Below are positions 2,565 to 43,880 of a DNA stretch of 64,000 nucleotides, piece by piece. The DNA is from Herbiconiux oxytropis (lineage in GTDB: Bacteria > Actinomycetota > Actinomycetes > Actinomycetales > Microbacteriaceae). The position numbers were made by a program, and so were the translations under genes. Every line of letters starts with the position of its first letter. Position 1 is the first letter of the stretch. Under the pieces are notes generated by a model. It did not search any database and had not been told where the DNA came from. It worked only from the letters and a program-made list of their open reading frames with translations. Where the stretch lies: positions 248,001-312,000 of the forward strand of contig NZ_JANLCK010000004.1 of NCBI RefSeq assembly GCF_024979315.1, given 5' to 3'.

Positions 2565-3467
2565 TTACTTGGCGGTGGCCAGTGCGTCGGCCCCGCCCAC
2601 GATTTCGGAAATCTGCTGCGTGATCTCACTCTGACGGGCGTTGTTCGCCAGCCGGGTGTAGTCACGGATAAGGTTGTCGGCGTTGTCGCTGGCCGACTTC
2701 ATCGCCTTCTGACGCGCTGCGTGCTCGGACGCCGCCGACTGCAGCATGGCGTTGTAGATGCGGCTCTCGACGTAGATCGGGAGCAGCTTGTCGAGCACGG
2801 TCTCGGCGTCCGGCTCGAACTCGTACAGCGGGTAGACGTCGGTGGACGGCGTCTCGGGGACTTCGCCCTCGACGATCTCGAGCGGCAGCAGGCGAACGAC
2901 CTCGGGAGCCTGCGTCACCATGCTGACGAACCGGTTGAAGACGAGGTGGATCTCGTCCACGCCGCCCGCCTGGTCGTCCAGGTTGTACGAGCCGACGACG
3001 CTCTCGGCGATCTCCTGGGCCGTCTCGATGACCGGCTGGTCGGTGCTGCCGGTCCACGACTTCACGCTGTCGCGCTTGCGGAAGTTGAAGTACGCCACGG
3101 CCTTGCGGCCCACCAGGTAGTACGAGACGGTCTTGCCTTCGCTCCGGAGCAGCTCGGCGAGCCGTTCCGCCTCCTTCAGCACCGACGAGGAGAAGGCGCC
3201 CGCGAGGCCGCGGTCCGAAGTGAAGATCACGATCGCGGCACTGTCGAGCTTCTCGCGCTCGCTCGTGAGCGGGTGGTCGACGTTCGAGTAGGTGGCGACC
3301 GCCGAGACGGCGCGGGTGATGGCCCGCGAGTACGGCTCGGAGGCCTTCACGCGCGACAGCGCCTTCTGGATCCGCGACGCGGAGATGAGCTCCATCGCCC
3401 GCGTGATCTTCTTGGTCGTCTGGGCCGACTTGATCTTCGACCGGTAGACCCTGAGCTGTGCACCCAT
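2565..3467 (-). CDS. atpG: ATP synthase F1 gamma subunit
   Basis: A 300-residue gamma subunit forming the rotating central shaft of F1. The N-terminal helix [20 protein letters not shown] and the segment [16 protein letters not shown] are characteristic, as is the C-terminal helix with [17 protein letters not shown]. The start ATG at 3467 lies 2 nt after the atpA stop, so it is probably translationally coupled. The central region [18 protein letters not shown] is conserved. Nothing is truncated or unusual. Confidence 0.97.
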
Positions 3468-3469
3468 GG

Positions 3470-5107
3470 TTAGCGGCGACCCTTGACGATCTTCTCCTGG
3501 CCGACTTCCTCCGCCTTGGTGGCGTCGAACTTCTCGGTGCCGACCGAGGCGAGGGGCTTGCCCTCACCGGTCTGGAACTCGAGCTTGAACTGGTCGATCG
3601 CCTTGTCGAGCGCGGCAGTCGTCTCGTCGTCGAGCTTGTTGGTCTCGCGGAGGGTGGTCAGGATGTCGCTGGTGCGCCCGATGTAGTCGAGCAGCTCGGC
3701 CTCGAAGCGCAGGATGTCCTCGACGGGGACCTCGTCGAGCTTGCCCTTGGTGCCGGCCCAGATCGAGACGACCTGCTGCTCCACGGGGAACGGCGAGTAC
3801 TGCGGCTGCTTGAGCAGCTCGGTGAGGCGGGCGCCTCGGGCGAGCTGACGACGCGAGGCCGCGTCGAGGTCGGACGCGAACATCGCGAAGGCCTCGAGCG
3901 AGCGGTACTGCGCGAGCTCGAGCTTCAGCGTTCCGGAGACCGACTTGATCGACTTCACCTGGGCGTCGCCACCGACTCGCGAGACCGAGATTCCCACGTC
4001 GACCGCGGGACGCTGGTTGGCGTTGAAGAGGTCGGACTGGAGGAAGATCTGGCCGTCGGTGATCGAGATCACGTTGGTCGGGATGTAGGCCGACACGTCG
4101 TTGGCCTTGGTCTCGATGATCGGCAGACCGGTCATCGATCCGGCACCCAGCTCGTCGGAGAGCTTGGCGCAGCGCTCGAGCAGACGCGAGTGCAGGTAGA
4201 ACACGTCGCCGGGGTACGCCTCGCGTCCCGGCGGACGACGCAGGAGGAGCGACACGGCGCGGTAGGCCTCGGCCTGCTTCGACAGGTCGTCGAAGATGAT
4301 CAGGACGTGCTTGCCGCCGTACATCCAGTGCTGGCCGATGGCCGAACCGGTGTAGGGGGCGAGGTACTTGAAGCCCGCGGGGTCGGAGGCGGGAGAGGCG
4401 ACGATGGTGGTGTACTCCATCGCTCCGGCGTCTTCGAGCGCGCCCTTCACCGAGGCGATGGTCGAGCCCTTCTGGCCGATCGCGACGTAGATGCAGCGCA
4501 CCTGCTTGTCGGTGTCGCCCGACTCCCAGTTGGCCTTCTGGTTGATGATCGTGTCGATCGCGATGGCGGTCTTGCCGGTCTGGCGGTCGCCGATGATCAG
4601 CTGGCGCTGGCCGCGGCCGATCGGGATCATGGCGTCGATCGCCTTGATGCCGGTCTGCATGGGCTCGTGCACGCTCTTGCGCGCCATGACGCCAGGCGCC
4701 TGGAGCTCGAGCTCGCGGCGGCCCTCCGAGGCGATCTCGCCGAGACCGTCGATCGGGTTGCCCAGCGGGTCGACGACGCGGCCGAGGTAGGCGTCGCCCA
4801 CGGGGACCGACAGCACCTCGCCGGTGCGGGTGACTTCCTGGCCCTCTTCGATGCCGGTGAACTCACCGAGCACCACGACACCGATCTCGTCCTCGTCGAG
4901 GTTCTGGGCGAGGCCCAGGGTTCCATCGGCGAAGCGGATGAGCTCGTTGGCCATCACACCGGGCAGACCCTCGACGTGGGCGATGCCGTCGGCGGCGTCG
5001 ATGACGTAGCCGACCTCGGTGGTCGAGGTCTTGCCGGGCTCGTAGGCCGCGACGAAGTCCTTGAGAGCGTCGCGGATCTCATCGGGGCGGATCGTAAGTT
5101 CAGCCAT
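3470..5107 (-). CDS. atpA: ATP synthase F1 alpha subunit
   Basis: A 545-residue alpha subunit, the non-catalytic nucleotide-binding partner of beta. The Walker A motif GDRQTGKT is at about residues 173-180. [14 protein letters not shown] and the Arg-finger region [13 protein letters not shown] are visible. Its C-terminal tail (after [12 protein letters not shown]) is longer than in E. coli, as in other actinobacteria. It is preceded by a 53-nt gap after atpH, carries a GGGAAAACG-type purine stretch before its ATG, and is followed 2 nt later by atpG. Confidence 0.98.
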
Positions 5108-40972: not shown

Positions 40973-42298
40973 ATGACCGACAACGCTGCGAACTGGAAGT
41001 TCGAGACCAAGCAGATCCACACCGGCGCGCAGCCGGACCCCACCACCAACGCCCGCGCGACGCCGATCTACCAGACCACCTCGTACGTCTTCAACAACGC
41101 CGACCACGCGAAGAACCTCTTCGCCCTCGCGGAGTTCGGCAACATCTACACGCGCATCCACAACCCCACGCAGGACGTCGTGGAGCAGCGCGTTGCCGCG
41201 CTCGAGGGCGGGACAGCAGCGCTGCTGGTCGCCTCGGGCCAGGCCGCTGAGACCTTCGCCGTGCTCAACATCGCCCAGGCCGGCGACCACATCGTCTCGT
41301 CGTCGTCGATCTACGGCGGCACCTACAACCTCTTCAAGTACACGCTCGCGAAGCTCGGCATCGAGACCACGTTCGTGGAGGACCAGGACGACGCCGAAGA
41401 GTGGCGCCGGGCCGTGCGCCCCAACACGAAGCTCTTCTTCGCCGAGACCATCGGCAACCCCAAGATCAACATCCTCGACATCGGGCTCGTCTCCACCGTC
41501 GCCCACGAGTCGGGCGTGCCGCTCATCGTCGACAACACGATCGCGACCCCCTACCTCATCCGCCCGCTCGAGCACGGCGCCGACATCGTGGTGCACTCGG
41601 CCACGAAGTTCCTCGGCGGCCACGGCACCGTCATCGGCGGCATCATCGTCGACGGCGGAAAGTTCGAGTGGTCGAAGAACGTCGAGAAGTTCCCCGGCCT
41701 CACCGAGCCCGACCCGTCCTACCACGGGGTCAGCTACACCGGTGCCCTGGGCGACCCCATCGCCTACGTCATCAAGGCGCGTGTGCAGCTCCTCCGCGAC
41801 CTCGGTGCCGCGATCGCCCCGGCCAGCGCCTGGCAGCTCATCCAGGGCATCGAGACGCTCTCGCTCCGGATCGAGCGTCACGTGCAGAACGCCCAGGAGA
41901 TCGCGGAGTGGCTCGACAACCACGACGACGTCGCGACCGTGTACTACGCGGGGCTCCCCTCGAGCCCCTGGTACGCGGCAGCGAACAAGTACGCCCCGAA
42001 GGGCGTCGGCGCCGTGCTGTCGTTCGAGCTCAAGGGCGGCGTGGATGCGGGACGCACCTTCGTGGAGAGCCTCTCGCTCTTCAGCCACCTCGCCAACATC
42101 GGCGACGTGCGCTCCCTCGTCATCCACCCCGCCTCCACCACCCACAGCCAGCTCACCCCCGAGCAGCAGCTCACCGCGGGCGTCACCCCCGGCCTCGTGC
42201 GCCTCTCGGTGGGCCTCGAGAACATCGACGACCTCAAGGCCGATCTGGAGAGCGGCCTCGCAGCCGCCCGCGACGTGGTCCGGGCCAACGCTGTGTGA
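40973..42298 (+). CDS. metY: O-acetylhomoserine sulfhydrylase (Cys/Met metabolism PLP enzyme)
   Basis: A 441-residue PLP enzyme making homocysteine from O-acetylhomoserine and sulfide. The N-terminal [20 protein letters not shown] and the PLP lysine in [18 protein letters not shown] are the MetY signatures. The ATG at 40973 with GGAGACCTCC just upstream is preferred over one 12 nt earlier. MetX, which makes its substrate, is the next gene on the same strand after an unusual 376-bp spacer, so the two form direct sulfhydrylation. Confidence 0.96.
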
Positions 42299-42406
42299 TC
42301 TACCGCGCCGCCGCCTCTGCGGCGCGGGCGACATGTGAGGCCGTCGTCGTTCCGCGTCGCTTCGCGGCGCGGCCCGGCGACGGTCTCACTCCGGGTACAG
42401 GAGAAG

Positions 42407-42436
42407 GGCCCCTTGCGTAACATTCGGCAAGGGGCC
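42407..42436 (+). other. Strong hairpin inside the metY-metX element
   Basis: GGCCCCTTGC (42407-42416) pairs perfectly with GCAAGGGGCC (42427-42436) around a 10-nt loop, extendable by one GU and one AU pair. No T-run follows. It may terminate or process the metY transcript. Confidence 0.55.
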
Positions 42437-42481
42437 TTCCCCATGCGCAAGACTTCCTTCGAGGCCGCCCGCGATGGTCCC

Positions 42482-42562
42482 ACCCCAGGTCCCCTCGCAA
42501 GGAGCCCCACCCCAGGTCCCCTCGCAAGGAGCCCTACCCCAGGTCCCCTCGCAAGGGGCCCT
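42482..42562 (+). repeat. Three tandem 27-bp repeats
   Basis: Three head-to-tail copies of a 27-bp unit, beginning ACCCCAGGTCCCCTCGCAAGG, run from 42482 to 42562 with one or two differences. Each copy carries GCAAGGRGCC (42497, 42524, 42551); the third is identical to the right arm of the hairpin at 42427-42436. No spacers separate the copies, so this is not a CRISPR. Confidence 0.85.
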
Positions 42563-42674
42563 ACCCACCCGACCCAGAGCGGCACGGTTGCCGCGAAGCG
42601 CCGCGCAGCGACGCGTAGCGACAGCCGCGCCGCATGTCGCCTGCGCCGCAGAGGCGGCGGCGCAGAAAGAAAAC

Positions 42675-43880
42675 ATGGACTGGCAGACGAACGAAGACAC
42701 CGTACCCTCCGGCTTCATCACCGATGCGCAGATCAGGTCGGTGCTCGGAAAGCCCCCTGCGTCGGGCGCGTGGCGGGAGGGTGACCCCGTGGGGCGGCGG
42801 CTGTTCGCCGATGTCGGTGAGTTCGTGTTCGAGAACGGGGTGCGGCTGCCGCAGACGCGACTGGCGTACCAGACCTATGGCACGCTCTCCCCGGAGCGGG
42901 ACAACGCGGTGCTCGTGCTGCACGCGCTGACCGGCGACAGCAACCTCAACCATCCGGCCGAGCCGGGACATCCGACCGACGGCTGGTGGCCGGGGCTCGT
43001 GGGGCCCGGCCTGCCGATCGACACCGACCGCTGGTTCGTGGTGGCGCCGAACATGCTGGGCGGCTGCCAGGGCTCGACGGGCCCCTCCTCGATCGCCCCC
43101 GACGGCGCGGAGTGGGGCGCGCGCTTCCCGTACACCACCATCGCCGACCAGGTGCGGGCGCAGCACGCCCTCTCGGAGGTCCTCGGAATCGATCGCTGGT
43201 TCGCGGTGGTCGGCGGTTCGATGGGCGGCATGCAGGTGCTCGAGTGGGGCGTGCGGTATCCGGATGCCATGGACCGCATCGCCGTGATCGCCGCGCCCGC
43301 GCTCAGCTCGGCCGATCAGATCGCGCTGAACTCGGTGCAGGTGCAGGCCATCCGTGCCGACGCGGCCTTCCACGGCGGCGACTACTACGACGCGGCCGAC
43401 GGCGAGGGCCCGCACCAGGGCCTCGCGCTGGCAAGGCGGATGGCGCTCTTGAACTACCGCAGCCCGAGCGAGCTGAACGGCCGGTTCCAGCGCAGCTGGC
43501 AGAGCGGCATCAGCCCGCTCGGCGGTGGTGGCCGCTTCGCGGTGGAGTCATATCTCGACTTCCATGGCAACAAGTTCACCCGCCGCTTCGACGCGAACAC
43601 CTACATCACGCTGGTGGAGGCCATGAACTCGCACGACATCGGCCGGGGACGGGCGGGGATCGTGCCGGCTCTCGAGTCGGTCACGGCGCGGGCGCTCGTG
43701 GTGGGCATCGACAGCGACCGGCTGTTCCCGGTGGAGGACCAGGCCCTCATCGCCCGCTACCTGCCGAACACCCTCGACGGCGACGAGCCCGTGGTGATCG
43801 AGTCGAAGTTCGGCCACGACGGGTTCCTGATCGAGTTCGACGAGGTGGGCCGGGAGATCGCGCGACTCTTCGCGGAGTGA
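42675..43880 (+). CDS. metX: Homoserine O-acetyltransferase
   Basis: A 401-residue alpha/beta-hydrolase-fold acyltransferase making O-acetylhomoserine for MetY. The nucleophile is in VVGGSMGGMQVLEWG; the Asp (VVGIDSDRLFPV) and His (KFGHDGFLIE) complete the triad. The sequence NMLGGCQGSTGPSS is the MetX signature. The ATG at 42675 lies just beyond the right arm of the inverted repeat, with only AGAAAGAAAAC before it, a weak ribosome binding site. The frame stays open upstream through the repeats, but that part is not family-like. Confidence 0.95.
   Translation: MDWQTNEDTVPSGFITDAQIRSVLGKPPASGAWREGDPVGRRLFADVGEFVFENGVRLPQTRLAYQTYGTLSPERDNAVLVLHALTGDSNLNHPAEPGHPTDGWWPGLVGPGLPIDTDRWFVVAPNMLGGCQGSTGPSSIAPDGAEWGARFPYTTIADQVRAQHALSEVLGIDRWFAVVGGSMGGMQVLEWGVRYPDAMDRIAVIAAPALSSADQIALNSVQVQAIRADAAFHGGDYYDAADGEGPHQGLALARRMALLNYRSPSELNGRFQRSWQSGISPLGGGGRFAVESYLDFHGNKFTRRFDANTYITLVEAMNSHDIGRGRAGIVPALESVTARALVVGIDSDRLFPVEDQALIARYLPNTLDGDEPVVIESKFGHDGFLIEFDEVGREIARLFAE

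Follow-up and report, generated by a model that had tools for sequence, protein, structure and literature searches.

Inverted repeat units between metY and metX of Herbiconiux oxytropis and their dispersed copies in the genus

The metY and metX genes of Herbiconiux oxytropis lie next to each other in the window (the whole stretch of 64,000 nucleotides that was analysed), and their spacer carries two long inverted arms. An earlier note on this DNA had offered two options for the structure, namely a mobile insertion later used for control and a structured leader designed for metX. The locus raises the question of what the arms are and what they may do to metX.

The inverted arms of the metY-metX spacer

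The arms of 64 nt each at 42306-42369 and 42599-42662 were found to match in inverted orientation at 54 of 64 positions, with 29 of 30 in the outer part, which bears out the figures of the earlier note. When the arms are extended to 92 nt (42305-42396 and 42572-42663), the inverted match is 73/92. For comparison, 293 stretches of 376 nt were drawn at random from the window; their best non-overlapping inverted matches over 64 nt averaged 33.7 and reached 39 at most. The match at metY-metX exceeds chance and is real. NCBIfam models confirmed the gene identities that had been given, O-acetylhomoserine sulfhydrylase for metY and homoserine O-acetyltransferase for metX, and the enclosed hairpin and three 27-bp tandem repeats are present as had been noted (Table 1). 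The spacer had also been taken as almost nothing but this element. This was wrong, because the central hairpin belongs to the ancestral metY-metX spacer and not to the element.

Table 1. Features of the metY-metX region and of one further site, in window positions.
Feature	Position	Strand	Basis
metY, O-acetylhomoserine/O-acetylserine sulfhydrylase, flanking gene	40973..42298	+	NCBIfam NF005872 above cut-off and gene call
metX, homoserine O-acetyltransferase, flanking gene	42675..43880	+	NCBIfam NF047917 above cut-off
Arm 1, a single repeat unit with its outer end facing the metY stop	42302..42418	+	Model R1 match, 118.5 bits
Arm 2, a single repeat unit with its outer end facing the metX start	42549..42666	-	Model R1 match, 114.8 bits
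Arm 1, hairpin 1	42303..42327	+	Covarying columns 2-26 of alignment A1; predicted fold agrees
Arm 1, conserved GCGACATG	42328..42335	+	Alignment A1
Arm 1, hairpin 2, long form	42335..42389	+	Columns 35-89 of alignment A1; predicted fold
Ancestral metY-metX spacer hairpin, loop with GTAACATTC; outside the repeat unit proper	42404..42439	+	Stem 42404-42416 with 42427-42439; recurs in arm-free Herbiconiux, Agreia and Subtercola spacers
GTAACA, first hexamer of the metX upstream motif GTAACA-N26-NAGAAT found across the family	42417..42422	+	Motif comparison
AAGACT in the position of the second hexamer, which is NAGAAT elsewhere; putative -10	42449..42454	+	Position; promoter role inferred
Three tandem copies, 27-nt period	42479..42566	+	Absent from three related blocks compared
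Related site without element in own genome	59399..59492	.	G008 has ~310 nt with a two-armed element, against ~92 nt with a different hairpin here

A dispersed and structured repeat unit

Each arm is a copy of a dispersed, non-coding, structured repeat of about 117 nt and not a structure private to metY-metX. A BLAST search of the spacer against its own genome (4.13 Mb in 32 contigs) gave 56 matching pieces, three of which were the window site itself or its own inverse. Alignment of 28 arms with MAFFT yielded the ~117-nt unit with three helices, and the covariance model R1 was built from these arms. The model matched at least 39 places in the own genome, a floor since 150 of 12,811 candidates were scored, and its matches to arm 1 and arm 2 lie 3 nt from metY and 8 nt from metX. 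The search for other loci that the earlier note had proposed thus brought out many further copies in the own genome and the genus.

From its outer end, the unit consists of hairpin 1, the conserved GCGACATG, hairpin 2 in a short or a long form, and a conserved inner tail close to YCTGGGTCNNCGAGTANGGCC, which runs into whichever stem occupies the centre. The loop of hairpin 1 is of two main types, and part of the copies carry, as judged by eye, a hairpin 0 outside hairpin 1. At L154:8050-8258 on contig C1 of the own genome, two extra partial copies (hairpin 1 and its foot) stand in tandem before a full unit.

In the 28-arm alignment, 98.0% of the cells pair and two-sided changes occur at 14 of 27 pairs, and the covariation score is 0.361 compared with 0.115 in shuffles and at most 0.107 when slid. 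With 83 arms fitted to the model (alignment A3, which is therefore biased towards the model's structure), 97.1% of the cells pair, 17 of 27 pairs have two-sided changes, and the score is 0.411 against 0.126 shuffled and at most 0.069 slid. The earlier note had named a lack of other copies and of covariation as what would speak against it, and both copies and covariation were found. On the arm strand there are 262 G-U and 9 A-C cells, and 256 of the 262 fall at five of the 27 pairs; one of these five reads U-G in 81 of 83 arms. Eight further covarying pairs change on both sides in concert, and 1 of their 664 cells is G-U; the covarying pairs 45-111 and 47-109 vary through G-U wobble. We read this pattern as a folded strand with fixed wobble positions, which would fit either an RNA transcribed from the outer-side gene or a single DNA strand that is recognised as such.

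R1 matched 14 of the 16 Herbiconiux genomes and none of 24 relatives that belong to other genera; the counts per genome are lower bounds because a limited set of candidates was scored. Under stricter filters, three of four Herbiconiux were positive among 199 family genomes, and 0 of the 195 other Microbacteriaceae. The two Herbiconiux genomes where R1 found no match are G001 and G013. The foot pattern of hairpin 1 matched once in each of them (with one control match in G001), compared with 78 in G002. Together with G009, which has at least three R1 matches, they form one clade on the metX+metY tree, and we note in passing that this clade may have lost the repeat family or never amplified it.

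Among the papers listed in a literature search, none named such an element in Herbiconiux. Arm 1 had no match in plasmid and phage collections and two exact hairpin-1 variants had none in viral contigs, and a phage or plasmid origin was rejected on these grounds. A group II intron or another reverse-transcriptase element was likewise rejected, as RVT_1 (PF00078) occurs in 3 of 16 genomes (G009, G001 and G007) and is absent from the own genome.

Occupied sites and the second arm-core-arm block

The genomic context was tallied for 77 arms in 57 spacers, 25 from the own genome, 23 from the sister genome G008 and 9 from 400 kb of G002, with gene calls from a purpose-written script that was verified with metY and metX; the tally excludes the weak extra copies in L154. 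The stretches of the own genome and G008 were picked for holding R1 matches, and that of G002 is contiguous and was picked for metX. The 57 spacers are not independent, since the loci of the own genome and G008 are partly orthologous. Among them, 35 are convergent, 22 codirectional and none divergent. The outer end of the arm faces the 3' end of a gene in 62/77 cases, often a few bases past the stop codon, and a 5' end in 15/77, including arm 2 at metX. No arm midpoint lies inside a predicted gene (0/77), and two arms run into the edge of a predicted gene, L187 over 37 nt and L170 over 54 nt. In the contiguous 400 kb of G002, occupied spacers of at least 100 nt were 6/16 of the convergent ones against 2/88 of the others (Fisher p = 1.2e-4); the weak arm L187, in a 46-nt spacer, is excluded from this test and included in the 57 spacers. 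In the own-genome stretches, which were picked for matches, divergent spacers were occupied in 0/37 cases against 25/77 for the others. Units stand singly, which is common, or as pairs around a central stretch, and all 20 pairs face inward.

Comparison with G008 indicated that sites differ in occupancy. Most of the long stretches that align between the two genomes share 92-97% identity, and a few share 74-91%. At one site, a two-armed element lies in ~336 nt of G008 where the own genome has ~20 nt, and a second such site lies in the window (Table 1); these calls rest on BLAST break points, and side-by-side alignments are poor inside the unmatched stretches. At the sites aligned between G008 and the own genome, where local differences blur the boundaries, no clean target duplication was found, as the earlier note had already seen for the metX copy. 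At metY-metX itself, G008 has arm 2 and no arm 1. R1 arms are present in this spacer in 9 of 15 Herbiconiux and missing in 6, and none was found at the 19 loci of other genera that were searched (58 further non-Herbiconiux loci were outside the search). On the metX+metY tree of 15 Herbiconiux and three outgroups, the arm pattern needs four changes, two of them forced by well-supported branches, so that gains and losses are both possible. The units are thus dispersed and structured, and they differ in presence between close genomes. By eye, several gene ends carry the repeat in two or more species, a pattern that vertical inheritance would also explain. Related spacers of G008 (L159:8217-8314) and the own genome (L157:7152-7249) carry an arm in opposite orientations.

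The centre of the metX copy has its own history. Across the family, the pattern GTAACA-N26-[CG]A[GC]AAT is found upstream of metX, usually a few bases before the start codon. A regular expression with a spacer of variable length found the motif in 54 of 95 metX loci and many others were off by one base; the 95 loci comprise 15 + 80, with three species counted twice and several Herbiconiux loci having arms in between. L057, L099 and L114 have N16 in place of N26, exactly ten less. The exact form GTAACA-N26-NAGAAT occurs at 0 to 2 places per Herbiconiux genome, 14 in total in 12 of 16 genomes, and by coordinates 10 of these are at metX and 4 elsewhere. In the arm-free Herbiconiux spacers, as well as in Agreia and Subtercola, a short hairpin carries GTAACA in or near its loop. 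The motif looks like an undescribed metX promoter or operator, and the metX promoter would then be probably near-leaderless, with a factor that may bind at GTAACA. A consensus scan of 42250-42760 found no sigma-70 promoter, nor was a T-run terminator found there.

A second copy of this arrangement lies at C23:563654-563948, an unrelated convergent locus of the own genome, where arm 1, the metX core and arm 2 follow in the same order. Compared with the arms at metX, its own show 95.8% identity over 119 nt and 93.8% over 113 nt, and on both sides the similarity to the metX spacer ends at the outer edge of hairpin 1. The block is also present in G008 at the matching place. GTAACA is lost in the C23-type copies (GTGGCA in the own genome and GCGGCA in G008) and retained at both metX loci. 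The 27-nt tandem expansion is confined to the own-genome metX spacer among the four blocks compared. We took metX as the donor, since the core is found at metX across the family. It would follow that the common ancestor of the two genomes had arm 1 at metX and that G008 lost it later. The presence of arm-core-arm at an unrelated locus means that the pair was, at least once, relocated or copied as a single block that ends at the outer edges of hairpin 1, with the ancestral metY-metX hairpin and motif inside. Transposition of the paired unit is favoured over gene conversion between paired units as the probable route of this duplication.

These observations bear on the possibility that the repeats are immobile now and represent ancestral structured 3'-end elements, such as terminators or insulators, which were selected and homogenised by gene conversion. 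The restriction to gene ends, the empty divergent spacers, the gene ends shared between species and the symmetric central stem of L026, which is flanked by A and T runs, would all agree with it, and the excess of G-U over A-C on the arm strand is what an RNA read from the outer-side gene should give. On the other hand, it explains poorly the sites that are occupied in one close genome and not in the other, the block at an unrelated locus that contains the metX core, and four two-armed copies of G002 that, by eye, share much of their centre at different loci. We consider this explanation unlikely.

Known repeat families and the effect on metX

The ERIC / RU-1 and bcr1-type repeats are short, RNA-structured, dispersed and intergenic, and the Herbiconiux repeat resembles them in all these points. 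Compared by description, it is unlike them in forming inward-facing pairs around a host-derived centre. The closest kinds are the REP/BIME elements and the MITEs, and the repeat behaves like a family of either kind.

A genuine REP/BIME family whose mobility depends on a REP-associated tyrosine (Y1) transposase would be in line with the high copy number and with extragenic, palindromic units that occur as singles and inverted pairs (at least 39 copies, 0/77 midpoints in genes, 20 pairs), as described for REPs and BIMEs in PMC2817692, and GTAGG is present in the inner tail of 8 of 28 arms. However, at the foot of the hairpin, where GTAG only was considered, 5 of 99 arms have this motif in the 10 nt that precede hairpin 1, and Y1_Tnp (PF01797) is absent from the own genome and found in the genus in G001 alone (1/16), a genome without an R1 match. 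The units of ~117 nt with two long hairpins also differ from the 20-40 nt of the REPs tabulated in PMC2817692. Membership of the REPs fails because the GTAG motif is not fixed and the carriers have no Y1 transposase, and we regard this origin as hardly credible.

As a short, non-coding, multi-copy and intergenic unit with inverted ends and presence/absence variation, the repeat agrees with the general description of a MITE, target duplication and parent transposon aside. A classical MITE, derived by deletion from a DNA transposon with a DDE transposase, seems doubtful nevertheless, because no clean target duplication was seen at the sites aligned, single arms are common, and no parent transposon was found in the two wide-spaced inward pairs that were read (L210 and L216), where no transposase or autonomous copy was recognised either. 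In L210:2043-3068 (G012, H. daphne), the two-armed copy is unusually long at ~1 kb; it contains internal repeats of roughly 110 nt, and no gene is predicted between its arms. In L216:2770-3643 (G003, H. ginsengi), inward arms enclose a predicted gene at 2915-3508 on the minus strand, which may have been boxed in by them. The BrickBuilt MITE of Porphyromonas gingivalis, compared by its description in PMC4596501, is likewise intergenic and multi-copy, with inverted ends and internal tandem repeats as in the metX copy. It differs in that tandem repeats are not general in the Herbiconiux repeat, and in its promoter elements, as described there, whereas the promoter-like core of the Herbiconiux element came from metX.

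Taken together, we consider, with a probability of roughly three in four, that the arms represent a dispersed, non-coding repeat specific to Herbiconiux, in two inverted copies, and that the element at metX is mainly a passenger. The repeat is most likely a non-autonomous structured mobile element, whose ends may be recognised as folded single strands by some enzyme. Copies at gene ends would be kept where their hairpins are harmless or useful; the persistence there could be due to hairpins that halt converging transcription or insulate against it, and that protect the 3' ends of mRNAs. Against this reading, no autonomous copy, enzyme or clean target duplication was found, and 15 of 77 outer ends face a 5' end. 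The mobile part of the earlier interpretation is well supported by the many copies in genome and genus, by presence and absence against a close genome, and by the second two-armed block.

A further reading gives the repeat a more active role, as a mobile element with ends recognised as folded single-stranded hairpins by a non-Y1 enzyme, which settles at gene ends, can take up host terminators and promoters between its arms and can move them as regulatory cassettes. The nearly wobble-free covarying pairs (1/664 G-U), a T-G fixed in 81 of 83 arms and the metX core at the second locus hint at it, and the pairs 45-111 and 47-109, which vary through wobble, argue against it. We hold it as possible, though rather on the unlikely side.

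In the window, the core reads GTAACA-N26-AAGACT and is followed by the tandem repeats and arm 2 before the metX ATG is reached. Arm 2 therefore separates the putative promoter core from the metX start, and the order of core, arm 2 and metX recurs in G008, H. daphne, G005, G014 and H. moechotypicola, six Herbiconiux genomes with the own one. It could be thought from this order that the arms form a regulatory, riboswitch-like RNA leader for metX, the more so as the whole spacer folds far better than shuffles (z -12.6). The metX-proximal stretch alone, however, folds only slightly better than shuffles (z -2.0), and the same unit adjoins many other genes and is missing from 6 of 15 Herbiconiux metY-metX spacers. 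In 42000-43000, Rfam gave four matches, all sub-threshold, the best with 27.8 bits against a gathering score of 49 and inside metY. A SAM riboswitch, whose core had not been evident earlier, or another Rfam RNA was rejected accordingly. A metX leader of this kind is very unlikely, and a designed leader is unsupported as stated, as the arms are a generic repeat.

We suggest instead that the passenger element boxed in the metX promoter, by which a nearly leaderless metX mRNA would have become one with a structured leader of roughly 200 nt, as a by-product of the element. Both a terminator or insulator function and a regulation of metX by the repeat are proposed here from sequence comparison. What appeared to be a one-off metX leader thus becomes a genus-wide repeat family that may shape gene ends and is able to carry host regulatory DNA.

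In H. ginsengi, the arm lies upstream of an intact metX core. The metY-metX spacer is thus a natural experiment, with sister species whose spacer lacks an arm, carries one upstream of the presumed promoter, or carries one that parts this promoter from the start codon, and the effect of the repeat on a biosynthetic gene is thereby directly measurable. The best named relatives by MetX were H. ginsengi, H. daphne and H. moechotypicola, whose metY-metX spacers are identical in reading to those of G003, G012 and G006.
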